Origin: Phorcus lineatus
Lineage: Eukaryota; Mollusca; Gastropoda; Trochida; Trochidae
Reading direction: 5' to 3'
Assembly (NCBI GenBank): GCA_921293015.1
Contig: OV121081.1
Location: 3,968,001 to 4,032,000, forward strand
Length of the DNA: 64,000 bases
The notes beneath the pieces were generated by a model. That model did not search any database and had not been told where the DNA came from. It was given only the letters and a program-made list of their open reading frames with translations. Numbering within the stretch: the first letter of the stretch is position 1; each line of letters begins with the position of its first letter. Of the stretch, positions 8,201 to 64,000 are shown piece by piece. A program made the position numbers and the translations under genes.

Positions 8201-8667
8201 CACATATTCTTTATTCCAAAAAAGACATATTTAACCATTAATGTGCCTGTTTGGGGTTAAATTCCTTGCACATAACTCCTGTAAAATCCTAATTCTTAAT
8301 CAATAAGCATCAGCACTAGTTGTTAAAGTTGTGTAAGCAGGTTGAGTTACATCATGCAGTCAATGTCATGACCAAATTGATTTGCTATTACATTAAGACG
8401 AACAACAGACAAAAAGTCAGATAGAATGACTACAATTTAACTATGTATAATTTTTATTTCTTATATAATGAAAGGCTTTAATAATGTATGACGCAATTTC
8501 TTACTTCTTTTCAGAAAGCTATCACTAATGGACAGAGTAATTATGGATTGTTTAACCGACCCCATAAATATTCACAATCATGGAACAGGACAGCTAATTA
8601 GGCAAAAGTAATCACATTTTTAATTGTGTATTATCATTATCAAAGTCAATAAGAAAATAAATACTTC

Positions 8668-10236
8668 TTGTCAGAAAGCATAGCTCCACCACAAATTGAC
8701 CCAGAAACGCATTTGTTAAATGAGATGTTAGATTCACCTATTAGCAGAGAAGAAATCCTGAAAAGCATAAACGATCTTAAATGTAATAAAGCTCCGGGTA
8801 TAGACGATACCCTCCCTGAATTCTTTAAAAATTCCACTGATATTTTGCTACCATATTTGGAATTATTATTCAATGTCATTTTAGACAATGGAAAGTTTCC
8901 TGAATCATGGTCCATCGGAATTATTGTTCCGATCCATAAACAAGGTAGTAGACAAGATATGAACAACTATAGAGGAATTACCCTTCTTAGCATCTTCGGC
9001 AAAATATTTACCTATATTATTAATAAAAGACTAGTTTTTTGGGCAGAATCTTTGGATAAAATAAACGAAGAACAAGCGGGATTCAGAGAAGGATATTCAA
9101 CCATCGATAACATTTTCACTTTACAAACCTTGATTCAAAAGTATTTGAAAACAAAGGGGGGTAAATTTTATGTATTTTTTGTTGATTTTGCAAAAGCGTT
9201 TGACACTATTGAAAGACACAAACTATGGAAGCTATTGAGATCGCATAGTCTTAGTAAGAAAATGAACAAATTATTATGTAGTATTTACGAGAATGTCAAA
9301 GTATGTGTGCGGAATAATAATGATATGTCTGATACCTTTACTAGTCACTTGGGAGTTAGACAGGGGTGCATACTAAGCCCGTTTTTATTCACGATCTTCA
9401 TTAACGAATTAGCCATTCAGATTAGGAAGAATTGTACCCATGGTATACAGCTTCATCCAGATATATTGGAATTATTTTTATTATTATTTGCAGATGATAT
9501 TATCCTTTTTTCCCCAACCGTAATTGGTCTTCAAAGGCAAATATATGAACTAGAAAAGTATTCTGATGAATGGAAACTAACAGTGAATAGATCTAAATCA
9601 AAAGTTATGGTATTCAAAAATGGGGGGAAATTATCAAAAACGGAAAAATGGTATTTCAAAGAAGAGCGACTGGAGACAACTTCACTTTATAAATATTTGG
9701 GTGTATTATTCAGCAAAAACCTTGCATGGAACAATCATTTCAACCAGGCAGCAACACAAGCTAAAAAGGTATTTATTGCTATCTGTAAACAAACCCACAT
9801 CTTAGGCGATCTCTCGTACCAAACCTTTTTTAAAATCTTTGATAGTAAAATAAAACCAATATTATTGTATGGGTCGGAAATATGGGGTTTACAAAATATA
9901 TATATAATTGAAAAGGTTCATCTATTTGCATGTAAAAAATATCTAGGAGTAAAATTAAGTACACCTAGTGTTATGGTTTATGGAGAACTAGGAAGGTTTC
10001 CACTTTATATCTATGCCTCTATAAATGCAGTCAAATATTGGTTGAAACTTTTAGCTATGTCTCATAAAAGAATACCAAAAAAATGTTATAATATGATGTT
10101 ATTGTATGACAAGAATGGACAAATAAATTGGGTATCTCAGGTTAGAAACTTTTTATTTGCTATTGGCTTTGGAAATATATGGAATGATCAATATGTAGAA
10201 TTTCAATCACTATTCATTAATTCCCTAACTGTTTGA
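8668..10236 (+). CDS. LINE reverse transcriptase (ORF2 fragment)
   Basis: A 522-codon frame for the RT domain of a non-LTR retrotransposon. Visible motifs in order: NKAPGIDD (template-grip region, about residues 40-47), NNYRGITLLS (about 92-101), EEQAGFREGYSTIDN, the first catalytic Asp in FFVDFAKAFDTI (Asp173), GVRQGCILSPFLFTIFINEL, the FADD catalytic box (274-277, DNA 9487-9498), and YKYLGVLF with ILLYGSEIWG in the thumb region. All three catalytic aspartates are present. The listed start is an arbitrary TTG, because the true N-terminus with the endonuclease is missing. The frame stops at TGA 10234-10236 but continues in the same frame downstream. Confidence 0.9.
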   Translation: MSESIAPPQIDPETHLLNEMLDSPISREEILKSINDLKCNKAPGIDDTLPEFFKNSTDILLPYLELLFNVILDNGKFPESWSIGIIVPIHKQGSRQDMNNYRGITLLSIFGKIFTYIINKRLVFWAESLDKINEEQAGFREGYSTIDNIFTLQTLIQKYLKTKGGKFYVFFVDFAKAFDTIERHKLWKLLRSHSLSKKMNKLLCSIYENVKVCVRNNNDMSDTFTSHLGVRQGCILSPFLFTIFINELAIQIRKNCTHGIQLHPDILELFLLLFADDIILFSPTVIGLQRQIYELEKYSDEWKLTVNRSKSKVMVFKNGGKLSKTEKWYFKEERLETTSLYKYLGVLFSKNLAWNNHFNQAATQAKKVFIAICKQTHILGDLSYQTFFKIFDSKIKPILLYGSEIWGLQNIYIIEKVHLFACKKYLGVKLSTPSVMVYGELGRFPLYIYASINAVKYWLKLLAMSHKRIPKKCYNMMLLYDKNGQINWVSQVRNFLFAIGFGNIWNDQYVEFQSLFINSLTV

Positions 10237-10278
10237 CTTAAAGACATTTATCTTCAAACATGGTGTGATAAAACTCAT

Positions 10279-10689
10279 TTGTCAAGTAAATGTTTTTACT
10301 ATTCACAATTTAAACACGACTTATTCAAAGAAACCTACTTGTCATGTATTGATATAAGAAAATTTAGGCGGTCTCTAGCACGCTTTCGATGCTCTTCACA
10401 CGATTTATTAATCGAAACTGGTAGATATAAAAATGTTAAAAAGGAAGACCGAATATGTACACTTTGTACTTTAAATGAAATAGAAGACGAATACCATTTT
10501 CTTTTTATTTGTCCAGTATATAATGCATTACGATGTAAGTATATTAAACAGTACTACTATGTCCATCCAAGTATTATAAAATTCTGTAATCTTATGAACA
10601 GTAAAAATCAAATTACACTACAAAATCTGGCTATGTACATCTACAATGCAATGAAGTACAGAACATATGTTTTATCACTAAAGTGTTAA
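10279..10689 (+). CDS. LINE C-terminal domain, in frame after a TGA
   Basis: This is the continuation of the LINE protein, not an independent gene. The 42 bases between the upstream TGA and this segment are in the same frame and contain no further stop. The segment has the conserved LINE tail: RRSLARFRCSSHDLLIETGRY, then a zinc-binding-like C-X2-C-X9-H-X4-C (ICTLC ... YHFLFIC) typical of the region after RT in many arthropod and molluscan LINEs. It ends at TAA 10687-10689. The single TGA is most simply a disabling mutation. Confidence 0.8.
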   Translation: MSSKCFYYSQFKHDLFKETYLSCIDIRKFRRSLARFRCSSHDLLIETGRYKNVKKEDRICTLCTLNEIEDEYHFLFICPVYNALRCKYIKQYYYVHPSIIKFCNLMNSKNQITLQNLAMYIYNAMKYRTYVLSLKC

Positions 10690-30494: not shown

Positions 30495-33400
30495 CTAAGG
30501 AAATCGTCCCTGAGGCAAGCGCTGATGTGTAGGGGAGTCTGTGATAAGCGTCACCTGCACACAGAGAGACGAAATAATTATTCAGCGGTTAGAGTGTGTT
30601 GTTCTAAGAAATCTTTTACATTAAATGGATTTCATTAACAATCCTATCACGAAGAGCACATTCATTCATGCTATTCAACAATCTCATTACACAACAGTAT
30701 ATATTTACAATGATTCCGGTTGCTTACTAGTGTTGCAGTTTCTAATTGTTTTATTTTACTTATTAATCACTTTGAAGTGACATTTAAAACAAAACAATCC
30801 AAACAAAGACTGATATTCACATATTAGAAGCCATTTTTGTCTGTTTCTAACAATTCATACACTTAGCATACGGTTCATGATTACAGGATTAGACAGATAT
30901 AACAGAAACAAAGGTCTAGATTATCATAAAGCACTTGCCTTGTTAAACACTCCTCTTCCAAAATAGTCAGCAACCACAGAGAAACCATCTGGCGCTCTCT
31001 CCAGCTGTAGGATAGAACAACCCAGTGAAGGTTTTGTTGTTTAATAATCTCCAAGGTATTCATGCATTGTGTTACATCATTATTTCTTGCCAATTGACAT
31101 GACATCACAATTTTGAAGACTTGACACTACAACAATTACTTCTTAGTTCTTTCCAAAAGTGGTTTTAAAGTTGACACAAATGAATATTGTCTGAATTGTT
31201 TTTCTATTGTTCAAATTTTACTAATTCAAACTATTTGTGCAAGCAATATTAAGCTCTGAGGGTAAAACATCTCATTACTAAACCCAATAATCCTTACTTT
31301 TAAAAAAGTGTCAGGTTTGAAGTGAAAATGTGGCCATTAGTGTGAACACCTTTTCATCACCCAAGTAAGGGAAATTGACTTGCATAGCTTAATTAGATTT
31401 ATTATGTTTGTTTAACGACTACTTTTATTGATAAGTAAGGACTGTCATGGAATTGGTAACACTCATTTTCCTTTCCTTCACAACATATTATTTCCCTTGA
31501 CAACATATTATTTCCCTTGATAACCATGCTTTACAGCCAGTAGAGTAACAAGCTTGAGGGGACCCACCTGATTGTGAAAGTGTTCATGGATATCTTTTGT
31601 TTGTTCTTGAGCCTGGATTATATCCATGATTTTTCTGAAAGACAATACAACACAAGAATTATCAGTATTCTGTTTGAGATCAAAAGTGTATGAATGCCAT
31701 CAGTTAACTATCGATTCAACTTAAGCATTTTTGGGTACATCCTGAAATCAAAAAGCCCAAGCACAAATTTGACCTATGCTGGACATGAAATTAAGATCTG
31801 CTTTTTACTAATTTCTATTTCTTTTGAATCAGCCAACCTATTCATATTTATAAAAAATAGAGCCATGGGCTCTGTAGCTCATCAGACTTTTGATAGAAAT
31901 AGGTGTTTGGGTTTAGACCATGGGGTCATGGGCAGTGTAGGAAAGATAGCCTGTCCCAACGTCCGACCAAATAAAAAAGGCCCATTGCCCATTTGGGGTC
32001 AAGGGGTCACCAAACCTAAAATTCAGAATCCCCATTGTCCAAGGAGTCTACACACAACTATTAAGCTATCAAGACCTTTTGGAACTGGAGAAGAAGATGA
32101 AAGTAGGATTTTTAGGTTTTGACCCCTGTGACCCCATTTGGGGTCATGGGGTCACCAAACCTACAATTTAGAATCCCCGTTGGCCAAGGAGTCTACACAC
32201 ACCTTTTCAGCTCTCTAGACCTTTTGGAACTAGGGAAAAAGATGAAATTAGGTTTTTTAGGTTTTGACCCCTGTGACCCCATTTGGGGTCAAGGGGTCAC
32301 CAAACCTACAATTCAGAATCCCCATTGTCCAAGGAGTCTACACACAACTATTAAGCGATCAAGACCTTTTGGAACTGGAGAAGAAGATGAAAGTAGGATT
32401 TTAAGGTTTTGACCCCTGTGACCCCATTTGGGGTCATGGGGTCACCAAACCTACAATTTAGAATCCCCATTGTCCAAGGAGTCTTCACACAATTTTTCAG
32501 CTCTCTAGACCTTTTGGAACTAGGGAAAAAGATGAAATTAGGTTTTTTAGGTTTTGACCCCTGTGACCCCATTTGGGGTCATGGGGTCACCAAACCTACA
32601 ATTTAGAATCCTCGTTGGCCAAGGAGTCTACACACACCTTTTCAGCTCTCTAGACCTTTTGGAACTGGAGAAGAAGATGAAAATAGGTTTTTAAGGTTTT
32701 GACCCTTGTGACCCCATTTGGGGTCATGGGGTCATGAAATCTACAATTTAGAATCCCCATTTGCCAAGGAGTATGCACATAAAATTTCAGCTCTCTAGAG
32801 TCATTGGTTCTGGAGAAGAAGTCGAAAAAGTGAAAAGTTTACGGACGGACGGACGGATGGACGGATGCCGGACGCCATGCCATGCCATAAGCCCATCGGG
32901 TCTTTCAGACCTGATGAGCTAAAATAGTTCATATCAATATATATTTACCTATTTTCTGCAGCACACACAGGGCATTCAGTGTCATTTTCTGCATAACTCT
33001 CGAAACAGCTGAAAGACAGGGAAACAAATGTCCACAAAATGTAATAATCAAAGCAATTCAATATTTTCTTAGCATATGTTTGTACCAATGCCTGAAGTAC
33101 AGCATAAGGATTTAGCATTATCTATTCATGTCATAAAGAAATGGACTATCTAAAGAACTTGTTCTGATAATGGCATTATTGGTACCCATTTCATCTATGA
33201 TAGACTGCACTCACTGTTTTTGTTTCCAAAGGATTGTAATCATTTTTACTAATTTACAACTTGCCTATCAATAAAGCAAGGCTGCACTCACAACAATACT
33301 TGTTGGTTGTCTCGAATGGATTGTAATTATGTTTTACTTATTTTACAACTAACTTGCCCTATGAATGGATGAGAGGCTGTACTCACTGTTGATGGTAGGA

Positions 33401-37000: not shown

Positions 37001-40000
37001 GCTGCACCTGCAATACAGACATTGCACACTCAAGCAAGATTTTGTCTACTTGGACATCTTTGATTGTCACTCAAGAAGTTTGAGTGATAAAGACTGATGA
37101 CCTTTTTTATTTTTTAAGGATACCTTTTTATTCCCCACAGGCGACATTTTGACACAGATAATAATGTTGTTGTCCAAAAAAGTAAAAACTGAAAAAAACC
37201 CTTGCAATGACTAACAAACAACAGCTTGGTTTTTTTCTTACCGAATATTCCTCCTTAAATGAATTATCTCCCTTGCAGATCAACTACGAAAAAATCAACT
37301 TGTAGATACAGCTATAATCAAACCAATTTAATGGTAAGTTTTTCCACCAGACAACAACATCAAAGATGGTTTATAACAAATTAGACTTACTTCAACCATG
37401 TGTTCAAGAAACTCTGTAAGTTTGCCCGAGTTGTTGACAAAAATGTGGATGAACTCTTCTGCGTTTGCTTTCTTTATCTTGTGATGACCTCCTGTAACAG
37501 GACCACATGCAGGGAACACTTTGTCTTTATCCAAACTATTTCCACAACTGTGTTCAACAGAAGCTATTGCTTCTCTACTTTCTAGAAGATATCATTTAGA
37601 TAGTAGTTTTATGATAATGCCTGTCATTGTCAAAGACATTACAATACTGTTACATCATCAAATAATGACATCATAATTCTATGATGTTATAAATATGAAG
37701 ACATCAGAATATTATGAAATCATCACGTAAATCAAATGGCAGTAGTCTATTCATTTTTTATTTAAATGAATGACAATAGGAAATAATATTTGGATGATAG
37801 ATAAAATATTGACCTCATGTCTTCTAAAATCAAACATATTAACACTCATGTAAGAGACAAATATATGGATGACAACTTCTTTATTCTGAGAACACAACTT
37901 TTCGACACAGCTTCAAGTGTCGTTGTAGCGTATATGTGTGTTGTGTCATATATTCGTCTCTTATCTGATCCCCAACTTCTAAATGCCACTCAAAGAAGAC
38001 ATTATACCTCCTTGATAAAAGTTAAATCAGCAAAGGCTTTCCTTGTATACTGGTTAGTCTTACCAACCTATGTTGATATTTTTCATATTGGAAGACACTT
38101 TGATGAAATTTTCTATAAAAGTCATATCGAAAAGACAATTTTCATAATATCTACTCACCGTCCATACTCGACTGGTCAATCAATGGTTCTGAAATACAGA
38201 GGTTTGAAATATGAAACATGACTTTGTAGAAAGGTATACAAACATAAGGAAACTAATAAGAATAGACAGAGGCAGCAAGGTCAGATTTACATAATTCCAC
38301 TAAAACAGGGACCAGATTCTCAATGATACGTTAAAGACATTATAATTTGATAATAAAAAAAGGTCAGAAAATTTCTCCAAAGACTGTCTCTAGGAACAAC
38401 GTTTGATGCATCAAGAGAAGAAGAGAATAAACATACGATCAACAGGTTTGTAGTCTGTACAGAGACGTTTGAGGAGCTCCGTGGTTTGTTGAGGAACTTC
38501 ACTCATCAGGACCTTCCCATACTGCTTCAGATTCTGCTCCGCCTGCAGTGAAATACAGAGATTATCAAAGAGGTAAAGTGTAATTTGACTTGAATTAAAC
38601 AAGTGTGTAATTTCTTTTTACCCAAGTGAGAGAAGAGAACTGAAGCACTGACCTCTTGAAATTCGAGTTTGGCGATGTAGTCGAGAGCCTTGTGGTATCG
38701 CTTGATGTCCTCCAGTTGTATCTTGAGGTACCATTCATGCTTGGCATGTTTCTCTGCCAAGGAGAGGGCGTGGTCGTGGTACCCCGCCTGGCGGCACACC
38801 TTGATGGCCGTCTCCACATCAAAGTCTACCTCACGGTCCTTTGTCTACAAGGCCAACGGGAGTAACATCTTAGAGTCAATGAGTCACAGACTTACACCAG
38901 GTTTTGTATTCGGTCATAGACTTTGTACTGTATTCAAGACACTTTCGGAGATATTTGTTTAGAAAAGGATCAAGCCTTCAACTTTTCAGTCAAAGATTAA
39001 ATGTTGTACCAAGTGACCATAGACTTAAGATATTTTAAGCCTTAATGGTAGCAATGTAACAATAATGAAAACTAAACAATGTAACTGAAACAACAATGTT
39101 ACTCGTCATTATGATGAAAAATAATATTTTTGATGTATATTCAAGTATTTGAGGCTCAGGGTTTGCAAACTATTGAGGACTGCCCTTTTATATCTTGGAA
39201 CTAATTTTTCGAAAACCTATTTACATTTTAGAAATATAAACACAGAGGGGACAGAACTCCGCACAGCTCACCATGATGAACTCGTCTAGCTTGGAGACGT
39301 CCTTGAGCTTAGTGTAACAGTTGAGGAGGAGGGTGGTGTGTTCCTCTGTCGCCATCTGGGCCTTGTGGAGCGCCTGCAAGTACTTGGTCAGGTTGTGGAT
39401 CCTCTGGGCGTCAAGGAACTGGTGTGGAGAAATGTGTTGTTAGCTCAAATCAAATGTCTTTGAAAGGCACAAAGAAATCGCATAAATTAGAAAATGAAGA
39501 TTTTCTAGATAACAACCTCTATTGTGAATGTTGTGTGAAAATACACAACATTTTGGAGTGATTGCTGAGGATGATGAAATTGTTTTGGAGAAACTCTTGC
39601 ATTTCTTATCCAAGTTTCACTACTAATCCTGTGTCATTATCTTCACCATTGATCATCAACAGTACTTGGTTTCACTCATTGTAACTTTAAGTGCAGGTAA
39701 ACAGCATAATATATATGATAGATAATAGGTTTCTATCTGTATAACATACCTAATGTTAGAGGAATGCAATCACCACATTATATGACATAAAATCTTATTC
39801 AAGTGTCATTGAAAAATGAAGAAACACATTCCAATTGCAATAATTTGAAAACAAACGTTCTATTACTAACACACTTGCAACACCAAGAAGCAATTATCTA
39901 GACAGTCTTCACGGATGAAAGTTACAAAACCTACCTTCCTGATGACATACGAGGCCTCCAGTTTGCCTATGGTCTTGATGTACTGATCGATGGCGCCGTC

Positions 40001-43000
40001 ATGGTCCCCCTTGCTGTACAGGTGGTCTCCGTACTGGGTGAAGATGTCGATCAGACCATCGGCGTCATACTGCTGGCTCTTAGCTAGGCTGTTGCATAAG
40101 ATATTTGTATTCAATATGATATTTATTTGGCAGTGCATGGGGAACAATTCAGCCGTCAGTGGAGTAAATACTGAAATTTACTGTTATGCTAAAAACCAAG
40201 ACAAGTTGCTATCAGTTGATCATGGTGACAATCATCTCTTATTTGAAGCTCTGTTGTACCTAACAGTGAATTAATGTTGATAATTGAATAAGATTCATCA
40301 GTTTTAAACAAGATGAAAGAACATAATTGATAAGATCATAAAAAATTACGACAGATGTGAACTTCTTCAGTAAATCATTGATTTTGATTTGTTGTCACAT
40401 TATTGAGTCACAGAAGGTTAATGATACTAAACCTGATAGCAAGAGTATAGTTATTCTTCTTGAAGAGCATCTCTAATTTTGTCTGAGTGTCCTTTTCTTG
40501 TAACTGATACAGCTGAAAATGGCGACAAATGATGAATTACATTTTGAACATTTTACAATAATGGTAGAAAATGGTAAAAATAACTGACATCATAACTTTT
40601 TGTTTGAAAGACCTCTTTAAAGCATGGAGGTTGAAAAGTGGTCAACTTGAATTACTTTGTAATACATACATTTATATAAAATATATACAAAATCATACCT
40701 ATGACCATTTTATCTAAGTAAGGAAATACTGAAAACCATGCAAACCTTCCTGTCCCCAGCAAGGACGTAGAGAGATCCCCACTCACACATGACATCGATG
40801 ACATCTGGGTAGGGGGCAGAGTAGGCAATAAACTTGTTCTGTATGTCATACACAGTCACCGTGTTCATCTCTAGGCCTTGGGTTCCCCTAGGAAGAAATC
40901 AGGATTGCAGCAAACTTCAGTTGTAGAATCAGTTTACATTTTGACTTTCTAGGATTTTTGTATCAAAAAATTCTTATCAAATTTGGACTAATTTCAAGCT
41001 TGACAACAAATATGCTGATATGGACCTACTCGTCCAAAACAGACAGTCTAGTTTGGAAGATAAACAATTCATAATAGATAAGTGAAACTAGTTCATGTCT
41101 AACACTCTCCTTGTGCAGCTACACAGCTACAACTGTGGTTTGATATTTTAACATTTTCCAAAGGAAAGTGAGACACTCAGAAGACCAGAACTCAAGACCA
41201 ATCTTTTTCCCCTTCTTTTTTGGAAGTGATTTTATTACCACTAAACACTTACAAGACGGGAGCTCGTGGCATGTTCTTATTGTCCTTCCCGACCACCACC
41301 AGGTAGCCTCGGAACCAGTGCAGTTGAAGTTTCTCTCCTTCAAACGCAAGACATGGACCACGCCCATCAGGCTGGTAGAAATAGACCGCCTGAAACATAG
41401 ACACAAATACAAAAAGATTATTTTGTTCAATAACATAACAGATCAACTGTATAAAGGCCACTTATTTTATGAATTTAATAATTTCAAATGTATTTCTGGA
41501 AGCTGACCTTAATTAAAAAGAATCCTTGTGCACGTGGGATTAAAACCTCATCAATTGGATATTGTGACCTTTAGCAAATTGAATTAAAATGCCTCATTGG
41601 TGAGATACTTGGTAGCAGAATGGCTTGAAAGCAATCTGGTCAGCATGAAATGTCAAATATACTTCTAAAACATCATATCATATTTGCCTTGTATGACCAT
41701 TTGCCTAGTCACCAGTGCACCCTTAACTTAACATGTATGCACTTACTCCCAAATTTCTTGCTTTGAAGAATGAATTGAAAGTTCATTTAACTATTCATAT
41801 TGATAGGGATAAGATGCCAAGATTCAGCAAGTGTTTAGGACTATATATTAGTTACAATTACTGGAAAGTGAAGCGAGTTGTTCTTAGAGTTACATTCATC
41901 ATAAATACACCAAGATGAAGTGGTTGGATTAAAGGTGATTATCTGCACCTTTGTTAACAGAACGTTGTTACAGTCAGATACTCTAAACAGCAGAGTTAAA
42001 CAATCTCTTTAAGAAGTGGGAATTGTTTGTCACGAACTATGTTAGCAGGTATGGTATTAAAGTTACTCACATCAGGTCTGCCAACGACAAGCTGGTTATC
42101 CTGACTGGCGTCACTGGTAACGGTACATCTCATCTTGGCGCCAAACGACTCCAGGGTTTCCTGTGGACAAATTCCTAACAATAAGACCTTCATCTTTTAA
42201 CTTCTCATCCAGCAGTCAACCAACTGAACATTTTTAACCAATGCATGGTTACATTTTCTAATTGCGGGTGCTAGCTTATTCAATAAGTATACAATGTGAA
42301 GCGGGTTCAAATTACTTTGAACATTTTATTTGATATACTGCTGACCCTGTGAGCACCTACCCTATGATCTTTGGCAGTGAGGTTGATAGCATTAACAGCT
42401 ATCTCGGTAACCACAAACAGAATGATGTCTCGTCCCGAGGTCTTGAAAGACAAGCCTGTGATAGCCCTCTGGTTCTCATATACTGTACGTGACTTACTGT
42501 GTCTGAAACAGTGGCAAGTGATATCAACACTTTACAAGAACAAGGATTCGTTTCCTTAAAGGTTGCAAGGTATTGATTGATTGAGAGATATTTTAGGGGC
42601 TTGTTTATGAAATGAATGTGTAATTATATTAAAAGCTCTTCATCTCCTTGATATGGATGCTAGTATAAACCATGAAAGAATGACTTCACCATATTAAAGA
42701 AACTGACTCTTTATAAATTTGGTTGTCCAAGCAATAAATACCTATCTCGGGTCACATCTCCTTTGTAGACCACCACAGTTCCATTTTCAAATCCAACTGC
42801 CATGTAGTTGAGGTTCTCATGTACACCCAAACATGTCACCTAAAATAACATCATTTCAACATAAAGCAAGGCATAAAGTATGTCAGTCACCCCCATCAGC
42901 TACTTCAATAATTGTTATCGCGCTTTCTTACCATTTCAGGAAAAAGTTTTGATTTTATTTCTATTTGAGGGCATCACCCTCATCAGATATTAGAACTATC

Positions 43001-46436: not shown

Positions 46437-49400
46437 ATGTCGAGAACTGCATCCACATTTGGAAAACAGACGAGGTCAAGGTCCTCTGTGAGAAATTTCG
46501 GAGGTTTGTAATCACGCAAGACACCGATTCAGTTATTTCCAAGGATATTGCATTACGATTTTGTGAATAATCGATCTTTTTGTGTCAGCTGTTTCTGGCC
46601 TAATCACTCAGTGAGGGTGTTGTGAGAGTTGTTGTTACTGCAGTTGAGTTACTGCAGGCGTTTCTCACCTGGATTTCTCAGTGTTCTTCACTCATAAACG
46701 AATCATCTGCTGGTGATTATTTTATATATAACAATTGTGTGATACCATTGCCGCCTTTCTTTCTGATTTATATCCGAAATTGCAATAAAATGTCAAGAAT
46801 TTCCCGACCTCTAGGATCTCAAACACCCGATGTTTATGATTGGAGCAGAAAACTTAGGTCAAGGAGTCCCTCTCCTTCAAGATTTTCACATACTGAATCA
46901 AAAGGTACAGTTACAATGATATGTAAACCTTTCCCTACATTTTGTTGTTTAATTTTTTTTATATTTTTTTCAAATAATAAAAATTGTTTGTATAAACAAT
47001 TTTGGTAGACTGCATTTTACAAGGTGCACATCAAATCTGCTCATTTTGTTCATTCTCTTTAAAGCTTTGATTCCCATTAGACTATTTCATGACTTTATCC
47101 CTTGGATATTTGTAAACTATCTTTTTTAATCCTAAGATCCCTTTCGACAATCTTTTAGGGTTAGTTTGTCTTGAGTAAGGGTAGACAATGTGTTACATAT
47201 GATAATTACCATTGCCCATTAAAGTGAAGTTTTCCCTTATATATATTTATCATCTTCTAATGGGAAGACTTCACTTGACTGAGCACTGTTAACAGTGTTA
47301 TCTTCAAACTAAACCTTAAAAAATCAACAATGGGTAGTGATCAGTTAAAAACATGTTTACCGCTTATGTTTAATGCTTGATGTCTTTAGGCTAATAAAAG
47401 TTTCGGTTTGAGGATTTGAAAGAATTGGTTTTTTTTAAACATTTGAACAATGTTATTGGATCCCCATTAGATTTAAAACCCCAAAACTTAATTTATTTCA
47501 CATTAATTCACATTTCATGTACTCCATTTATCTATGATTCTATGAAGGAATGTTAGTATAAATATGAGACTCTTGATTTCATACAAAAGGCTGATTATCC
47601 ATTAAAATAAAGTTGCAATTATAATTTCAAAACTATTTTCAGATAAATTTCATATCTGACATTGATACCTTTTATTGCATTGTGTTGTAAGATCCGAAAA
47701 CAACATAAAATAGATAATTTGACAGTAATTTTATATCAAGGCAATCATTTGTTATTTTATCGGGCATTTGTTGTGATACTAGTTAATTGTTAAGAAGTTG
47801 ATGTGATATTCATAATACTTTATATATCATAATTGATATAATTACAGCTGCATTTATGACTGATGTGCCTTCCAAAGCTTCCAGCCTACTTAAGAAAGAC
47901 AGCTCAATGAGCAACTCTCTTCGCAAGAGTACTGGCAATCTTGCTGCTGGATTATCAGGGTAATTGATTTTGACAGATATTATTCTCCCTATTGTAATTG
48001 AAAAATTCCTACAGCAGAAGAAATTTCACAGAGAAACTTGTAATCAATCTAGAAATACACTAGTTTAGTCTATTATCTGTTTTCACATTTCAGGAAATCA
48101 AGTAAAAGTGGGATGAACTTCTCCAATGTGGAGGCGGAATATATAAAAAATCTTCAGCAGCAGATCTACTTCCTTGAGCTTGAAGCCAATTATCTATATC
48201 CTTCTTGAGTTTTTTTAATGCATTTTATCTTGCAAAACACTGTCCTTTTTTCAGAAGGAAAATAATTTTAGTTTATCCTTAATTTAAAAAATTTCAACTG
48301 TCATTTGTTTCCACTTTCTGTTTAAAAACGTTTTGACTTTATAAGAATGGTTTACAACTTTTATAATAACTCAGATGAAAATGTTTCTTTAAATCATTCA
48401 GAAAGGTCATTAAAGTTTTCTTGTAGTAGTTATAACAAGCCTTTTGTGGTTATATTCCTTGACACCAGTGAACACGTGATCAAGCCAAGAAAGCTACTGA
48501 CATGCATCCTCAAATGACAGCAGAGGCAGAGAGAATGCTCTCAAAGCTGAGGGTTTGTACTTTTTTCTTTTATATTATCAAGTATGTAGCTTATAGGAAT
48601 AAATATTAATAAACTAATATTGTACAAATTTTTTTCGATATGATTTGATTATAAACTTGGAAATCAGAGCCTTGCTTAAACCTACACTCTATCATCTATC
48701 TAGGTAATTTGTTTGAATGTTTATTTTATCTTGTCAAGGTATTGATTATCAAGAAAAGACTCATTTTCTCGGAAATGAATTGATTCACCATCATTTATTG
48801 GATTATTGCACTTTGACAGGAATAAATGTTTGAAGACAGACAGGTGGCCAGCTTATGCTTAGGATTTCTCCAATGTCAATCATAACTCGTAAAAATTTAT
48901 AACATTATGTACATGTCAGATTATACTATATTCACAATGCAAGTGGTATATAATGGTTTATTCCTCGTTATCCCTGAGAGAATACTGTAATTTAGGCACT
49001 AGCGTTGTGTACTCATTATACCACGGAAGCCCCTATGATAACTGTATATGTGGTGTCTGTGTGCAGGTGATGCAGGTTGATATGGACAGTATGCAAACAG
49101 AGATCAGACACAAGGAGTCCAGCGTGGCTGTAGTTGAGAGTGAGAAGGAACAGCTGGAAGCGCAGTACAGACAAAACCAAGGTAAATATTGCCTGGAAAA
49201 TGTAGATTTAGATTAAGACCGCTGCCTGTCCATCATTAGAGATCTGGTAACTTCATATCATCAAAGAACATATTTCATAGCATTCTTTAAAGAGGTACAT
49301 CAACTCAAACTAGAGAGGCTTTATTCTTTGATGCTTTAGTCATTTGACTGTACACCGCTCAAATGAGTCACTTTTGCAGACCACCGTAAGGTAAAACACT

Positions 49401-52400
49401 GACTGAATCATCAAATTGGTCAAGGTGATAACAGTGAAGAATTCCATGAATTAAAATGTTTTGTTGTCTAAAATTAGGCAGATAGTTTCAGTTGGCTTTG
49501 CTGGACTCTCGGAAAGTGTTCGAGTTTGAACAAAGATCAACTTCAGAGGATACAAAGGAAGCTATTTCTTTCAGGAGAGAAAGGTTACATAGCTGTATAA
49601 AGGTTTATATTGGTACTCCTTGGATGATCCAAATTACTATGAAAACCTTAGTGCGATATCATTCTACTAAGCTTACCTAAGAATTTTAGTTCTTTTTGTG
49701 CTAAAAGGACATGTTCATTTGAAATGATTATTTTTCGTTAAAAAATGTTAATAAATTGACATTCTTTTTTGTTTGCAGAAAACTGGCTGAGAGAAAAGCG
49801 GCTGTTGACAGATGAACTTATTACATTTAAAAAAGAAAAGGACAGGCTACAGAGAGAGACGGCACGTAAAGACGCCCAGCTGCTGGAGGCCAAGACTGAG
49901 ATTGACAAGAGTGCTGCTGCAATGAAGAACGCTGAACTCCAGATCACAACCCTCAAGAGTCAGGTTCGTATGAAAGATTGACCTTGTTAATTCTCTTGAG
50001 CATATAAAAAAAACCCAACCCAATAGCAAAAAGGTTGATAGAATTTCTGTGACTAAATCTCCCTAAAAATGTTGTATTTGTTTACTCTCATTCTAGGTCC
50101 TTCTTTGTAGCAAATTCCTTGATCCATGACTGATATATGATGACTGTTAAACTTTTAAGCCCCCTTGCATGTGATAGCCAAATGGAAGATCCTTAACCAA
50201 TGGTATCATGATATTTTCTGTGTAACTACCACTACCTGTCATGCAACATTGTGAGTTATGTGACAACAGCTGGACCAAAGAGTGGAGCAGCACAAGCTGA
50301 CTCAGCTGAATCTTGAGGAGAAGAGGTCAGAGCTGCTCACTGTGGAGACACAGCTGCGGGAGTTGGAGGAGAAGTATTACAGCAGCACGGTCACCATCCA
50401 GGACAAGGTCACTCAGGATCTCAGGGTCAGTCAGAATAACAGCCTTTATGATCACATTTGTAACACTGTTGGTAGGTGCAGTTTGCTTACAAGAATTCAT
50501 TTGTAAACTTGTATTATGACAAAAGATTGATGACAAGAAATATTACAACTATCTGTTAATATCTAATGTGTGGTTTTACTTTTCATGTTGTTATTTCGCC
50601 TCACAAAAATATTGGTCTTTGGTATCCCCTCCAGGATGAGATTCGGTTCCTGCGGCAAAAGCTTAAGGAGGCTGAACTAGCGGCTGAGAAGGACCGTTAC
50701 CTGCGGGACAAGGCATCAGAGGACAGCTCTCACCTCACCAAGGAGATCGCTCTCCTCCAACAGGAGAACTCAGAGCTCCGTAAACAGATTGAAAGGGTAG
50801 GACTAGAGTCAGTGATAAACTAGTTTTAATGAACTATACATTAATAGAGCAGACAGGCTAGAGTGGCAGATTAATAAAATATACCTTGAGACTTGATCCA
50901 TCGAATAAGAAATGATTGTATTATTACTTTTAATTGATATGTCTTCACAAGTGATATATGTGCTGCTCATCTTTAAACATTTCCATTCCAAGGACAAAGG
51001 GTCCCAACCTTTGAATGTGATTGTATGTTTTACTAAGATGACACTCACATATGAGGGAATTGATATCATGTCTTTGTTTCCACTGTTTGAAATTACTATG
51101 CATAACTAACATAACCTAAAACTTCATTATTCAGGCAAGATTATCAAGCAAATCATAAAAACCAATTGCCTGAAAGTACAGAACTTGAATGAGTAGGACG
51201 TTGACTGGCAGCTGTGCTATGTGTATTGTATGAGAAGACAAGTAATCATGTATCTGACTTTCAGTAATCATGTATCTGACTTTCAGTAATCATGTATCTG
51301 ACTTTCAGTGATCATGTATCTGACTTTCAGTGATCATGTATCTGACTTTCAGTGATCATGTATCTGACTTTCAGTAATCATGTATCTGACTTTCAGTAAT
51401 CATGTATCTGACTTTCAGTGATCATGTATCTGACTTTCAGTAATCATGTATCTGACTTTCAGTGATCATGTATCTGACTTTCAGTAATCATGTATCTGAC
51501 TTTCAGTAATCATGTATCTGACTTTCAGTGATCATGTATCTGACTTTCAGTGATCATGTATCTGACTTTCAGTAATCATGTATCTGACTTTCAGTGATCA
51601 TGTATCTGACTTTCAGTAATCATGTATCTGACTTTCAGTCATCATGTATCTGACTTTCAGTCATCATGTATCTGACTTTCAGTAATCATGTATCTGACTT
51701 TCAGTGATCATGTATCTGACTTTCAGTAATCATGTATCTGACTTTCAGTGATCATGTATCTGACTTTCAGTGATCATGTATCTGACTTTCAGTAATCATG
51801 TATCTGACTTTCAGTAATCATGTATCTGACTTTCAGTGATCATGTATCTGACTTTCAGTGATCATGTATCTGACTTTCAGGAGAGAGGACTGCGAGACAG
51901 CAACGAGCAACGACACTCCCAGAACATTGTGGAGCTGGTGACAAGTCGGGACAAGGAGAAGCAGCTTCAGTTTGAATTGGAACAACTACGGGAACAACTC
52001 AGGCGCGAGACAGAGAAATCTCAACACTATCTTGAGGAGGTAGGGAAACCAGCATCGTGACTTTTGGCTTTGCCACTTGGTAATCTTATACTTGTACTAA
52101 GTCGTAGGCTTGAGAAAGCTAGGGATAGTTAGATTTGGACAGAACTATTTATTAGGTTGTAATAGAAACAAGACTATGTCAATTTATTGTTCTTTTGGTT
52201 CTTTGTGACTACCATGGTTGAACTTAAACTGATTTGAATATTCAGGAGGAACATTTTATATGTGGAGTTAAGATGGTGAAGACCTCAAGCAACTTTTGCT
52301 TAGAATTTCAAGACCTAATAATGCTGCTTTGCCAACTTTGAAGTTATGAACAGACAGTCAATTAGGACAATATCATTAGAAAGATACTGGAGTTTTGTAT

Positions 52401-53440
52401 CATCACTCTCATGAATAATAAGTAAATGATTTCTATTTGGGTAGAGAGGTAAGATTTTTCTATCTTTTCATTATGAACACAAAGCATAAGGACACCCATT
52501 ATGAAAGAAACAGTGAGAACATGAAATCATCTATCTGTTTGTTGTAGTTGACAAAGAAGGACACTGTGCAGGGCAGTACAGAGCAACAGCTGAAGACTGC
52601 CAAATACCGCCTCACTGAGCTTGAGTCTATGCAAGTGGCCACAGATTCAGAAAACACTCAGCTCAGGAAAGACAAGTTGCTGCTTGTTGACCATGTGGCA
52701 GAACTACAGGCTCAGGTAGGGGAAAGAAGTCATGTAGAGGACTTGTACAGCAGACTTTTGAGATTTACTGACACTTGAGCATGGGTAAAGTAAAGATTTC
52801 TAGTTGGGGCTCATTTGTATTATCATTTAATTTTACATTTTAAAAGCAACACAATGACATATAAGTAAATTTGCACCAGCTTTTCTATTTTGAGCGTATT
52901 GTGGTTCTTGAATCAGTCTTAGCCTTCTATTAGTCAATAAAAGCTGTTGTGAATACATAAAGGGTATCTATCTTTTCTTGAACGAAATAGTTTTCATTGT
53001 ATATAGCGTTGAGAAAGTTTATATTTTCATGTCTGACTAGCAGTAACAGGATCATTTTTTACCAGCTGCCATGACAAGCTCAGTAACAATTGATTTCGAA
53101 AGAATTTCTTTATGATACCAACTCTTGGACTTTGACCTTGGACTGACAGCAGATCTATTCCACTGAATGAATGCTGTATTTCCATGATACAATGCAAGCT
53201 TCTGACTGCTTGTTGCAGCTGGAGGACAAGGAGCGGGATGTGCTGCAGATGCAACACGAGTTGGTTTCCATGGAGGCGCGGGTCAGCGAGACCGAGCACG
53301 AGAAGAGTCTCGAGCACACTGTCCAGAGTCAGAAGTGGGAGGAGTTTGGTCGTCTTGCTGAAAGCATGCGGTCTCTCTCTCGTACTATGGCCTCCCAGGT
53401 CGCCTCACCACGCTCAAGCACTAAGATACTGCGATACTAG
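46437..53440 (+). CDS. Coiled-coil protein, about 508 aa, possibly ciliary or centrosomal
   Basis: Eleven coding exons join in phase: 46437-46503, 47848-47959, 48094-48195, 48474-48552, 49067-49181, 49779-49963, 50270-50425, 50635-50796, 51881-52039, 52548-52715, 53219-53440 (stop TAG). The protein has a Ser/Arg-rich N-terminus (MSRTASTFGKQTRSRSSVRN), then VEAEYIKNLQQQIYFLELEA from about residue 73. From there an almost uninterrupted heptad coiled coil rich in Glu, Lys, Gln and Leu runs to about residue 480, followed by a short Ser/Arg tail ending TKILRY. There is no signal peptide, membrane segment or catalytic domain. Coiled coil of this kind, plus an RFX-like X-box upstream, fits a centrosomal or axonemal scaffold, but I cannot name the ortholog. 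The intron after 48195 is U12-type AT-AC; all others are GT-AG. A second possible first exon is at 46790-46904. Confidence 0.9.
46790..46904 (+). CDS. Alternative first coding exon of the coiled-coil gene
   Basis: An ATG at 46790 opens MSRISRPLGSQTPDVYDWSR and continues KLRSRSPSPSRFSHTESK, reaching a donor AAAG|GTACAG at 46904/46905 in phase 1. The canonical exon 1 also ends in phase 1, so both can splice to the exon at 47848, giving N-termini of 22 or 38 residues and proteins of about 508 or 524 aa. The frame is open further upstream to about 46622, and the start could lie there. Both versions begin MSR and are Arg/Ser-rich. Confidence 0.6.
48196..48473 (+). other. U12-type AT-AC intron, 278 bp
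   Basis: The 5' splice site is |ATATCCTTCT, an exact match to the U12 AT-AC donor ATATCCTT. A U12 branch-site consensus TTCCTTGAC lies at 48455-48463 with the branch adenosine 11 bases from the 3' end, and the intron ends in AC (GTGAAC|ACGTGATC). Joining CT to ACGTGATC restores NYLRDQAKKATDMHP in frame. No GT donor exists nearby: the unspliced frame stops at TATCTATATCCTTCTTGA. Confidence 0.9.
51243..51880 (+). repeat. 29-copy, 22-bp minisatellite made of 3' splice sites
   Basis: Exactly 29 tandem units of 22 bp (638 bp) with no length variation. Each unit ends in CTGACTTTCAG, that is, a branch-site-like CTGAC followed by an acceptor. The last unit provides the actual AG in front of the exon at 51881 (GAGAGAGGACTGCGAG). 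Units differ only at their second base (A in 14, G in 13, C in 2). The order from the left is AAAGGGAAGAGAAGGAGACC then AGAGGAAGG. The intron before this exon therefore contains 28 decoy acceptors in perfect copies of the real one. Confidence 0.97.
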
Positions 53441-59372: not shown

Positions 59373-60428
59373 TTAACGAGTAGGAGGGTGACTCCCGCGC
59401 TGAGGAGCCGAAGGAACTCGCTGCTGGGCGTACACCTGTGCGCCCAGCCGGTTGATCCCCTCCAAATCCTCGTTGGAGATGTCCCGGAGGTAGTGGTTGG
59501 CGAACACCAAGCCTGACTTCCAGAAGCAGCCAGCCATGATGTCCGCCACCGCCAAGTTGCTGTGGAGGGCCATCGTCGCTGAGATGGCCCTGATCTCGTG
59601 CGGATTTGCCCTCGCTGGAGGGTCAAGGTCCGCTGCTTTGTAGGCGTCTAGGACCGCTGAGCGGAGGTAAACGCCCAGTTGTCTTTTATCAATTTCCCGG
59701 ACACTGGTCTGGGAATGTGGGATGAAGAGTCTCCTTCTCCCTTGACGCAGTGTCCGGGTTTTCTCGGCATAGATCCGTAGCGCGCGTACCGGACAGAGGA
59801 GACGATTCTCCTCGTCTGTCGGATCTACGCTCCCGGAAATGGACGGTAACGAGAAGGTTCTACCCCTCTCGTCCGCGGTTTGGTTTTTGCAGATAAACTC
59901 AGGCGCCAGTCCCAGAGTAGCCGACCCCCCATCCCTCACATCAAAACGCAAAAGGTCCGCCTGGAGAGCATGTAGCTCTGAAATCCTGGCTGCGGACCCC
60001 ATTGCGACCAAAAAGGCGGTTTTGATGGTGAGACGGAGGACGGTTGTCTCCGTCAACGGTTCATAGTGGTCAGACTTAAGATGGTTGAGGACCACCGCTA
60101 AGTCCCACTCTGGGGGCCTGAGTTTCATCCGCCCGTCCACATTCCGGTAGGTTCTCACGAGCTCCTTGAGGACCGAGATGTCCAACTGGGGGTCTCGCTT
60201 CCTAAGCACGGACATTATCGCTGCCAGATTGGTGTTAATGGACGAGGCTTTAAGCTTCCTCGTCTCTCGCAGGTAGACCAGGTACTCTGCAACCTGCGGG
60301 ACCGTAACTACCTGGACATCGTACCCCTCCTTGGCGCAGAAAGTCGCGAAAGCCCCCCACTGAGCGTCATAGAGATTCCTAGTGGAGGGCCTCTGGGAAG
60401 TCGCCACCGCCTCGGCAACGGATTTGGA
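59373..60428 (-). CDS. DIRS tyrosine recombinase
   Basis: About 351 codons of a lambda-integrase-type recombinase. The N-terminal SAM-like core-binding domain includes TRNLYDAQWGAFATFCAKEG; the catalytic domain follows. Catalytic residues are Arg in GSAARISELHAL, His and Arg in NPHEIRAIS, Trp in CFWKS and the nucleophile Tyr in FANHYLRDIS, so the R-H-R-Y set is complete. It ends TAG at 59373. The frame is open far upstream (to 62267), but the part above roughly 60430 overlaps the RT gene in another frame and lacks domain character. The true start is probably near 60430-60560, overlapping the end of the RT ORF as in other DIRS elements. Confidence 0.9.
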   Translation of the reverse strand, partial: SKSVAEAVATSQRPSTRNLYDAQWGAFATFCAKEGYDVQVVTVPQVAEYLVYLRETRKLKASSINTNLAAIMSVLRKRDPQLDISVLKELVRTYRNVDGRMKLRPPEWDLAVVLNHLKSDHYEPLTETTVLRLTIKTAFLVAMGSAARISELHALQADLLRFDVRDGGSATLGLAPEFICKNQTADERGRTFSLPSISGSVDPTDEENRLLCPVRALRIYAEKTRTLRQGRRRLFIPHSQTSVREIDKRQLGVYLRSAVLDAYKAADLDPPARANPHEIRAISATMALHSNLAVADIMAGCFWKSGLVFANHYLRDISNEDLEGINRLGAQVYAQQRVPSAPQRGSHPPTR

Positions 60429-60442
60429 AAAACCCGCCCCCG

Positions 60443-62602
60443 TCAGGCCTCTCTGGAGACAAACCAAGCGTGAAGCTGTAGAGCCTGGGGGTTCTCGTGA
60501 ACCCGCCCGCTCGGTCTGCTCGACAGCAGGTCCCACCTCAGAGGGAGGGGGACCGGGTCTTGGCGGCACATCCTTCGGAGGGGAACGTACCAGGTCCTGG
60601 CTGGCCACCGCGGCGCTATCAACAACAGTTGAAGAACTCGAGTCTCCTGTATCTTCTCCACCACGAGGTTCAGGATGGCGGGAGGGGGATAGGCGTAGGC
60701 AACCATCCCCTCCCATTCTAACGCGAGCGCATCGAGAGCCCACGCGGTAGGGTCCGGTACAGGAGACACGTACGTCGGCAACTGGTGGTTGAGCCGAGTC
60801 GCGAAGAGGTCTATGTGAGGCTTGCCGAACCTCAGACACAGACTCTCGAACACTCTCGGGTGCAGCATCCACTCTGTTGATGGAGGTTTGTCCGGGCGAG
60901 ACAAGGCGTCCGCTAGGACGTTCTTGGCTCCCGGGATGTGCACCGCGCGGAGAGAGAGTCCGAGACTGTCTACTAGGCGAAACAGCTCCAACACCAGTTG
61001 CAGAAGCGAGTCTGCTTTGGTCGAGCCTTGCTTGTTGATGGCCCAGGCCGCCGCTGAGCTGTCCGTGTGAACACACAGGATCTGCCCCCGCAGGCGACCT
61101 GACCAATGGTCGATTGCTAGACGAATCGCGTCTAGCTCTAGGACGTTGATGTGGCGTCTCACTTGGGTTGATGACCACACCCCCGCCGTCTGCTCCGTAT
61201 CGAGATGGGCTCCCCACCCTTGGGTGGAGGCGTCCACAAACAGGTGACATGTTGCTGGCGGTTCCCTGAGGGGGACCCCCACCAACACGTTGGACTCCTG
61301 TTGCCACCAGGAGAGGTGGTGTCTGAGTCCCGAGGGTAGAGAGAAAAGGTGATGGCACGCCTTCTCTCTGACGTGAACGTTTACGAAGATCTGCAGGGGC
61401 CTGAGCTGCAACCTTCCCCTTCGGGTGAAGTGTTGGGTCGCACTCAAGAACCCTAGCAGCCTTTGCCACTTGCGTAGCGACAGAGGCCCCCGAAGCGCTA
61501 GCTCCAGGAGATCTCGGTAACGTCCCATTCGTTCCCGGGTAACGAAGGCTTTGTAGATAGCGGTGTCCAGGCGGGCGCCCAGAAACACCAAGGACGTCGT
61601 CGGCAGCAGGTCTGACTTGTCTAGATTGACTAGCCACCCCAGCCGCCTGAACAACGCTATCACAAAGTCCCGTTGAGCTTCCAGAATAGACGGGGATCTG
61701 TTGTGACCGAACCCGTCGTCCAGGTACATCGCAAACTGTACGTCCACTGTGTGGAGATATTGGACGATGGGCTGGGTCACGCGAGTGAACAGCCACGGAG
61801 CCGACGAGATCCCGAACGGAAGGACGTTCCACTGAAAGTGGCGACCCGCTAGGACGAAGCGGAGGTACCTGCGATCCCCATGATAAATGGGGATGTGCAG
61901 ATACGCGTCCTGCAGGTCGAGGGATATCATCGAGTCCGAGGGCTCCAGTAATCGCATTACTGACGGCACTGTCATGAGACGAAAATATGGCGGCGGATCT
62001 AGGAAGGAGTGGTTGAACTCCTTCATGTCGTGGATCAGCCGCCACTTCTTCGGGTCTCGCTTCGGTCGGATGAAGACCGGAGAGTAGAAACCTGGTGCAA
62101 GGTCCTGGAGCGGTAGTTCCTCCACCGCCCGCTTGGAGATGAGCGTCTCCACCTGTTCCAGAGTCAGCGCGAGCCGATCGGGCTCCAGCGGCCGCTCTGT
62201 AGGAGAACAGGTCAGCGGGGGGCGGCGTAACACGGGAATGCGGAACCCCCGCTCCAGGATATTGCAAATGAACGGGTCCAGACCCAACTGTCTCCAGTTG
62301 GGCGCGAATCGCGCGAGACGGCCTCCAACTGGTGCGTCCAGAGGTGGGACCACCTGCGGCGGTAGGTCCGGAGGTACCCAGTCATTGTTTCTTGGGGGTA
62401 CCTCCGTAGGCACGACCTTTGAGGCGTTGGTTGCCTTTCTTGGGAGTGCGCTTGGGGGAGGGGCCGGCACTGAAGTCGCGACTTCTGTCCTGCCGACTCC
62501 TCCCCCCGAGAAATGACACTCCTCCCGTCTTCGTAGGGAAGGAGGGCCCACCTCCACCCTTCTTCTTAGGCGTTGTCGTCTGGGCAGATACTCTGCCCCC
62601 AC
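60443..62602 (-). CDS. DIRS reverse transcriptase-RNase H
   Basis: About 719 codons. RT motifs: KKWRLIHDMKEFN, SLDLQDAYLHIPI with the first catalytic Asp, LPFGISSAPWLFT, and the YLDD box (residues 293-296, DNA 61715-61726). RNase H follows with LFVDASTQGWGAH (Asp near 457), NVLELDAIRLAI, CVHTDSSAAAWAINKQG and NVLADALSR, so all four acidic positions are visible. The C-terminal extension HIDLFATRLN...LPTYVSPVPDP is conserved in DIRS polyproteins and is sometimes annotated as methyltransferase-like. The ORF overlaps the gag-like ORF by about 220 bases in a different frame; the real initiation point is uncertain. Confidence 0.92.
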   Translation of the reverse strand: MGAEYLPRRQRLRRRVEVGPPSLRRREECHFSGGGVGRTEVATSVPAPPPSALPRKATNASKVVPTEVPPRNNDWVPPDLPPQVVPPLDAPVGGRLARFAPNWRQLGLDPFICNILERGFRIPVLRRPPLTCSPTERPLEPDRLALTLEQVETLISKRAVEELPLQDLAPGFYSPVFIRPKRDPKKWRLIHDMKEFNHSFLDPPPYFRLMTVPSVMRLLEPSDSMISLDLQDAYLHIPIYHGDRRYLRFVLAGRHFQWNVLPFGISSAPWLFTRVTQPIVQYLHTVDVQFAMYLDDGFGHNRSPSILEAQRDFVIALFRRLGWLVNLDKSDLLPTTSLVFLGARLDTAIYKAFVTRERMGRYRDLLELALRGPLSLRKWQRLLGFLSATQHFTRRGRLQLRPLQIFVNVHVREKACHHLFSLPSGLRHHLSWWQQESNVLVGVPLREPPATCHLFVDASTQGWGAHLDTEQTAGVWSSTQVRRHINVLELDAIRLAIDHWSGRLRGQILCVHTDSSAAAWAINKQGSTKADSLLQLVLELFRLVDSLGLSLRAVHIPGAKNVLADALSRPDKPPSTEWMLHPRVFESLCLRFGKPHIDLFATRLNHQLPTYVSPVPDPTAWALDALALEWEGMVAYAYPPPAILNLVVEKIQETRVLQLLLIAPRWPARTWYVPLRRMCRQDPVPLPLRWDLLSSRPSGRVHENPQALQLHAWFVSREA

Positions 62603-64000
62603 CAGCGGCCAGTCTGTTTGTTAGCTCTTGTTGTTGGCTTTCCTGCCGCTGGCGAAGAGCCCCCGCGACTTGCCCGTCGAAGAGGGTAGCGGAAGTCCCA
62701 GGAGCGGACCTCAGTCGGTTCCGGAGCTCCGCCGGAAGGTTCGTCCGCGCCAGGAATCCATCGCGCCTGAGATTCGTCACCCCCGCTGAGATGCGAGAGG
62801 CAGACAGCATCATCTGCGCGAGATTCCCGGCCACGGATCCAAAGCCACGATAGAGAGCCTTGGCCCCTTGCTCCATGCCCGCCTCGTTCGCGAATGCTGC
62901 CATCGCTTGGCAGGCGTGCGCGACGTGGTTGGCCAGCCCCAAGATGCTCCTTGCTTCCTTGTCAAGGTGTGACAAGTGAGCATCTGACACCTGGTGAGGT
63001 ATGGCAGGGGCCGCCACTCGCCGGATGTCGTCGTCCAAGGCGGGGGGAGAAAAGGGCAAGGAACAGCCATGTACTGGGAGACCAGATCGGACCTTGTCCG
63101 ATAACACCAGGGGGGGCAAGAGACGACCCGGCGCTGCAGCTGCAACGTTGGAGTCGAAGTCTCTGCCCGCCGCCTGCAGGAGCCTGTGCGCCGGAAGCGC
63201 CAGCTGGCGCTGCGTCGGCGTCTCCTCCTCCGCGCAGAAGGTTTCCAACCTGGCCACCCTAGTCGAAGAAGGTTCTTCCTCCAACTCCTGCACGCTTACC
63301 TGACACCAATCAGCGATGGCAGTCAGGCGGTCTTTTAGATCGGGAGCGTCGTCCGCCGTGGTCACAGCCGTGACAGGCGGTGGGGGAGTCACGTTCCCCC
63401 GCCCAGGCGTTCCTTCATCCTGGCCTCGATCAGGAGTTGGGGAAGAGTCATGATCCGAGGGGGTGGCAGCGGGAGAAACGACCACCACCCTCCTCCTCTT
63501 AGGAGAGGACGGCGCCTCAGGGGAGGGCGGGGATGAAGTAGTCCCCTCCTCGACCCTGGGCCGCTCACGTTCTCTGGACTCGAACATGGATACGACCAGA
63601 TCCTTCACTGAGGACATGATATCGTCCGTCAGCTTCTTCTGGTCGAAGGCCACTGGGGAAGCGGGTCTCGACCTCTTCCTCTTCTTATGTTTCCTCTTCC
63701 TCCTGGCGGCCCGGCGGCCCGGGGAAGAGGCAGTGTCAGGGGAGGATCTCCTTCCAGGAGATCGCTCTACCCCGCTAGAGGGAGGAGAGGCGACCGGCGC
63801 ATCCTCAACCGGCGACACGATCTTATCGGACCCGCCGCCTGTCTCCGACAGGTCAAATTCCGCGGCGTCCTCCGAAATGACAAGATCTGAGTTTTGCGCA
63901 ACATCCGCGCCCTTGGTGGCGGTAGCTGAGGAGGACGCAGAAGGCCGCCTAGTGGATCTGAGTCTCTGCTGAGACTCCGACTTCTTTACCGCGGCGCGGT
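62382..64000 (-). CDS. DIRS gag-like protein, 5' end outside window
   Basis: Open from the right edge to the stop at 62382 with no in-frame stop (about 539 codons visible); the start lies beyond 64000. The N-terminal half is low complexity, with Ser/Pro/acidic tracts and a strong basic nuclear-localisation-like run RRAARRKRKHKKRKRSR. The central part contains a helical segment (LPVHGCSLPFSPPALDDDIR, LGLANHVAHACQAMAAFANE) of the type seen in DIRS ORF1. The tail is Gly/Arg/Lys-rich (QTTTPKKKGGGGPSFPTK), probably nucleic-acid binding. There is no CCHC zinc knuckle, as is usual for DIRS gag. Confidence 0.8.
   Translation of the reverse strand, partial: RAAVKKSESQQRLRSTRRPSASSSATATKGADVAQNSDLVISEDAAEFDLSETGGGSDKIVSPVEDAPVASPPSSGVERSPGRRSSPDTASSPGRRAARRKRKHKKRKRSRPASPVAFDQKKLTDDIMSSVKDLVVSMFESRERERPRVEEGTTSSPPSPEAPSSPKRRRVVVVSPAATPSDHDSSPTPDRGQDEGTPGRGNVTPPPPVTAVTTADDAPDLKDRLTAIADWCQVSVQELEEEPSSTRVARLETFCAEEETPTQRQLALPAHRLLQAAGRDFDSNVAAAAPGRLLPPLVLSDKVRSGLPVHGCSLPFSPPALDDDIRRVAAPAIPHQVSDAHLSHLDKEARSILGLANHVAHACQAMAAFANEAGMEQGAKALYRGFGSVAGNLAQMMLSASRISAGVTNLRRDGFLARTNLPAELRNRLRSAPGTSATLFDGQVAGALRQRQESQQQELTNRLAAGGGRVSAQTTTPKKKGGGGPSFPTKTGGVSFLGGRSRQDRSRDFSAGPSPKRTPKKGNQRLKGRAYGGTPKKQ

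Follow-up and report, generated by a model that had tools for sequence, protein, structure and literature searches.

In amphioxus, tandem duplications located at intron-exon boundaries (termed 'mirages') have been described for Adh3, for the globin genes BflGb6 and BflGb9 and for troponin C, and similar imperfect repeats that 'coincide with or overlap' splice sites have been reported for PGBD5 (PMC3087553, PMC3902484). The Adh3 units range from 10 to 72 bp and are described as unstable in length, even somatically, and the normal mRNA of genes carrying mirages is reportedly undisturbed (PMC3087553, PMC3902484). In the human genome, intron 18 of ABCA7 is reported to harbor a VNTR of 25-bp units (23.7 copies in the reference, with alleles of ~12 to 427 units), in which the first two bases of the unit correspond to the exon 18 donor; the length of the array affects splicing, the products include transcripts that retain one unit as well as transcripts with in-frame exon skipping, and length has also been tied to disease risk (PMC5954066). 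Competition between AGs at a single exon edge, as considered here, is familiar from reports of NAGNAG tandem acceptors (PMC3250501), in which the AGs are 3 nt apart, whereas those described below are 22 nt apart and each unit holds its own branch-point motif. Finally, a minisatellite that gives rise to multiple splice donor sites in a human interferon-induced transcript is known from a title cited in PMC2572611. It resembles the present array in offering multiple splice sites, which are donors according to that title and acceptors here. We take the transcript in question to be IFI6 (6-16). Minisatellites at splice sites are thus already known in kind, and the singularity implied by a preliminary description of the present locus was too strong in view of the reports from amphioxus genes and human ABCA7.

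The array described here is found in a window of 64 kb (the whole stretch of DNA that was analysed), at the 3' end of an intron in a modelled gene. Like this array, the amphioxus mirages are reported to be minisatellite-like, to include 3' boundaries and to carry AG/GT signals in many units; by the definition given in PMC3087553, however, a mirage extends across the boundary and includes duplicated exon sequence, whereas the repeat here contains no exon sequence, does not span the exon-intron boundary and stops at the end of the intron. The dimensions also differ, with the units of BflGb6 described as 150-160 bp long and numbering 6 in one haplotype and 3 in another, compared to 29 units of 22 bp here. 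The ABCA7 VNTR, as reported, shares with it an array that is flush with an exon and a terminal unit that provides the splice site; it lies on the donor side, however, and both its polymorphism and its effect on splicing have been shown, whereas the present array lies on the acceptor side and is known from one sequence.

Anatomy of the array

The array and the modelled features that surround it are as follows (a slash marks the exon-intron junction).

51243-51880, + strand: 22-bp minisatellite of 29 units, TNATCATGTATCTGACTTTCAG (direct reading, TRF and unit search)
46790-53440, + strand: host gene, modelled with 11 exons and 524 aa from ATG to TAG, of coiled-coil-like composition
50635-50796, + strand: exon 8 (upstream coding exon, modelled), 162 nt, ending ...KQIER, phase 0, donor GAAAGG/GTAGGA
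50797-51880, + strand: intron 8 (modelled), 1084 nt, GT-AG, of which the final 638 nt are the array
51881-52039, + strand: exon 9 (downstream coding exon, modelled), 159 nt, phase 0/0, ERGLRDSNEQ...HYLEE, donor GAGGAG/GTAGGG

Direct reading of 51243-51880 (+) gives 29 contiguous 22-bp units without indels, each of them ending in CTGACTTTCAG, and TRF returned nearly the same interval (51241-51880, period 22, 29.1 copies, 97% match, 0% indels), so that the number and exact length of the units given in the preliminary description are borne out. That description had also confined variation to a single base, which is correct as to position, since position 2 of the unit is the only variable base and the other 21 of 22 positions are identical in 29/29 units; the base in question has three states, however (A in 14 units, G in 13 and C in 2). 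When the unit was searched against the window with as many as three mismatches, all 29 matches fell inside the array and no second copy was found outside it; across 100 dinucleotide shuffles the mean was 0.01 unit matches, and none reached 29. Exact copies of the unit numbered 0 in the viral contigs searched.

Along the array, the variants of position 2 follow the order AAAGGGAAGAGAAGGAGACCAGAGGAAGG, which is without blocks: the map of A, G and C contains 18 runs where 17.3 are expected, and its longest repeated variant block is 5 where 6.0 is expected. A recent, block-wise amplification was considered and rejected on the grounds that the variant map holds no such blocks, and the random interspersion of the variants makes repeated shuffling a likelier history than one amplification. 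The 'very recent expansion' that had been proposed for the locus consequently survives only in part: the identity of 21/22 positions in all 29 units agrees with it, but the randomly interspersed variants do not. As read from the units themselves, their near-identity points to recent homogenisation.

The array stops at the final base of the intron, with the units starting TNATCATG and exon 9 starting GAGAGAGG. Its end at 51880 adjoins modelled exon 9 to the base, and the terminal unit is therefore the predicted splice site of a coding exon, in agreement with the earlier assertion that the acceptor of the next coding exon comes from the final unit.

The host gene

The exon model was built from splice sites and reading frame, and the start of exon 9 at 51881 was modelled from frame, splice motifs and composition. 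Exon 9 carries the open frame onward at phase 0, with just one of its three frames open, and has a GC content of 0.51, as compared to 0.34 for intron 8. Exons 8, 9 and 10 each have a length divisible by three and are in phase 0, and exon 8 joined straight to exon 10 is still in frame, so that continuity of the frame is by itself no proof of exon 9, which could be optional. A simple heptad test gave P <=0.05 for 6/11 exons; exon 9 was not significant (P 0.355). For the whole protein, Pfam returned only three matches, all of them below threshold (DUF4200, E 0.019; Cnn_1N, E 0.046; ATG16, E 0.22), and a PDB search with the protein, exon 9 included, gave 0 matches at E 0.01; the gene has accordingly been left without a name.

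A scan for exact 11-mer repeats within 250 nt of other exon ends covered 20/22 ends, counting those formed by the start and stop codons and leaving out 50796 and 51881, and such repeats were absent at 19/20 of the ends examined. At the one remaining end, 52039, five 11-mer pairs were listed, all of which are array units.

Within the model, 9/10 introns are GT-AG. The exception, at 48196-48473 (+), starts with ATATCCTT and ends with AC, preserves the frame and has, in TTCCTTGAC, an A at a distance of 11 nt from the intron's final base. By the U12-type consensus, we take this to be a probable U12-type AT-AC intron.

The unit as an acceptor module

Both CTGAC and TTTCAG occur in 29/29 units, with AG splice signals recurring in tandem along the array; no unit has a second yUnAy motif besides CTGAC, or a second AG besides that of TTTCAG. 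The roles assigned to the units in the model are listed below.

51243-51858, + strand: units 1-28, decoy acceptors with T as the next base, any use of which adds an in-frame stop (computed)
51848-51852, + strand: putative branch-point motif CTGAC of unit 28, with its A at 51851, at a distance of 29 nt from the final base of the intron
51859-51880, + strand: unit 29, which provides the TTTCAG modelled as the true acceptor, after which comes the exon G (direct reading)

From the A of each CTGAC, the distance to the AG within that unit is 7 nt, as against 29 nt to the AG of the unit that follows. AGs that lie ~12-15 nt or less from a branch point can reportedly be bypassed (PMC1431707), so that a unit's own AG would be open to bypass and adjacent units would act in pairs. 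Most simply, then, a working acceptor would consist of the branch motif of one unit and the AG of the unit that follows, with the modelled site formed by units 28 and 29. In the most likely course of events, 51881 is the point to which exon 8 is spliced: unit 28 would contribute its CTGAC as branch point, the AG of unit 28 would be too near to it and would be skipped, and the AG of unit 29 would be the next one met. The last copy would probably prevail over its 28 twins because it alone has AG/G and leads on to genuine exon sequence with a donor beyond it.

By the stricter of two measures, a CTRAY motif located 18-40 nt from the acceptor, intron 8 stands alone among the 10 introns of the model. 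The looser yUnAy motif occurs in the same interval in 4/10 introns, intron 8 among them, and by that measure its branch-point match is not special. Between positions -20 and -4, pyrimidines occupy 11/17 positions in intron 8, and 7-13 in the other eight GT-AG introns.

The 28 remaining units are in exact register, as had been claimed, with TTTCAG recurring at 22-bp steps; each is AG/T (28/28), AG/G being found at the last unit alone. The proposal that the decoys carry stop codons proved to understate the case, since the predicted use of any decoy adds a multiple of 22 nt (22k) together with an in-frame stop in 28/28 cases. In 26 of these the stop is the first added codon; in the other two (units 18 and 19, each of which precedes a TCA unit) it is the fifth. 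Every decoy is thus predicted to be unproductive, regardless of whether 22k is divisible by three. Were splicing to slip to unit 28 or farther upstream, the messages would be stopped immediately and would presumably be eliminated as nonsense mRNA, and skipping of exon 9 would keep the frame at the cost of 53 aa. The one-unit retention and in-frame skipping reported for ABCA7 show, by analogy and from the donor side, these same predicted failure modes.

Masking of the decoys by RNA structure was considered and rejected: the segment 51727-51940 (units 23-29 and the first 60 nt of exon 9) folds worse than its shuffles (z +1.43, with 190/200 shuffles at least as stable). A structure in single-stranded DNA was rejected as well, six units giving z -0.99 with 31/200 shuffles at least as stable.

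Origin of the array and alternative explanations

The explanation that we consider probable is that the native acceptor was amplified in tandem, with the last copy needed, and hence kept, and with decoys that are unproductive and an array that is tolerated. The 3' splice-site region of intron 8 (a branch motif, a short pyrimidine run and CAG) would have been duplicated in tandem, and slippage or unequal exchange would then have spread this module into a minisatellite of 29 copies. The coincidence of the array's end with the modelled end of the intron suits such an amplification with selection holding the last copy; while this anatomy can be read directly, it is as a matter of presumed history that the array would have stayed flush with the exon because the gene needs that copy. 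The repeat contains no exon sequence, and the argument for duplication of an acceptor is accordingly one of position, with no duplicated junction to accompany it. Against amplification stands the 22-mer located directly upstream of the array, which matches the unit at 10/22 positions, a level at least equalled by 9% of 905 control 22-mers; in that comparison, an ancestral single unit was not found.

The same two observations, a unit free of exon sequence and an upstream 22-mer that is no significant older unit, leave room for a different origin, in which a minisatellite from elsewhere in the intron, or an imported one, reached the edge of the exon and replaced the old acceptor; a unit that by chance held CTGAC and TTTCAG could have taken over in this way. 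That such motifs can arise by chance in satellites is illustrated within the window by a degenerate 32-bp array at 7290-8216 (~76% matches), whose TRF consensus, read by eye, includes TTCTGACACACCCTCTAAACAG, a branch motif plus CAG module with CTGAC, and which has no known exon beside it. We nonetheless hold a captured satellite to be quite improbable, given an array whose end coincides, to the base, with the border of the modelled exon, and the lack of any other copy of the unit in the window at up to three mismatches. Still further down the scale, to the point of being highly improbable, is an array inflated or homogenised by the assembler at a locus with few true copies: consensus polishing might well yield near-perfect units, but the map of the three variants is interspersed and follows no regular order, unlike a copied block, and 638 bp is a length that long or Sanger reads can span.

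Two further proposals concern what the array does. In one, it would act as a splicing rheostat, in which the number of decoys shifts transcripts towards stop-containing mRNA or in-frame skipping and gene dose follows the length of the allele. The prediction that 28/28 decoys are unproductive favours this idea, near-identical modules would in principle compete, and the length of the ABCA7 VNTR is reported to alter isoform ratios (PMC5954066); the amphioxus mirages, however, reportedly leave splicing undisturbed (PMC3087553, PMC3902484), and nothing points to selection on copy number. A function for copy number is rated unlikely, and so is the rheostat as a whole. In the other proposal, which we would place among the distinctly unlikely ones, each inner unit is half of two acceptors, because its own AG is too near the branch point and the next is in range, and the number of units sets the rate of slippage into an immediately stopped message. 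If this were true, an unstable minisatellite would constitute a dial, heritable and perhaps also variable in somatic tissue, that sets a single gene's output. Under the amplified native acceptor that we prefer, in contrast, the unproductive decoys and the in-frame skipping of exon 9 make the array probably a by-product, and most likely a tolerated and mildly noisy one rather than a device.

Other features of the window

GC content lies between 0.30 and 0.40 in 27/32 bins of 2 kb across the window. Other tandem arrays include a 44-bp minisatellite at 1-2045, which starts at the window edge and has at least 46 copies, and a 145-bp array at 31988-32821 (5.8 copies) that terminates in a simple repeat resembling GGACGGACGGACGGATGGACGG. 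A reverse transcriptase frame at 8653-10689 (+) (RVT_1, E 8.5e-37) is followed by a stop and then by a second open stretch without a Pfam match, and presumably belongs to a LINE-like element. At 59373-62620 (-) lies a GC-rich mobile element, which we assume to be DIRS/Ngaro-like; its reverse transcriptase frame (RVT_1, E 2.8e-19) overlaps a second frame of 1002 codons that has no Pfam match, RNase H was matched only below the cut-off, and the element explains at least part of the rise in GC at the right end of the window. A VPS11 gene is represented by exons at 38530-40177 (-), with a match to the PEP5/VPS11 clathrin repeat at 38530-38844 (E 5.2e-20) and a second such match, below the cut-off, at 39869-40177 (-) (E 2.3e-05); the stretch 38527-38844 gave no PDB match. 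Searches with Rfam, at its gathering scores, and with ARAGORN, under the bacterial code, each gave 0 matches.

Significance

Among the matches listed in the literature search, which mostly excluded subscription journals, none described a strictly intronic acceptor minisatellite of this kind, as judged by title and the start of the abstract. Within the literature searched, then, a strictly intronic acceptor module in 29 copies, whose putative branch point and AG interlock, constitutes a new form of splice-site minisatellite. The locus constitutes a natural test of splicing, in which 29 near-identical acceptor modules are arranged in series ahead of one exon and the spliceosome must choose between them; the use of junctions at each unit would tell first-AG scanning, exon proximity and a preference for AG/G apart in vivo. 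The array would also mirror the ABCA7 donor VNTR from the acceptor side, and it suggests that splice sites may be recurring seeds of minisatellites.
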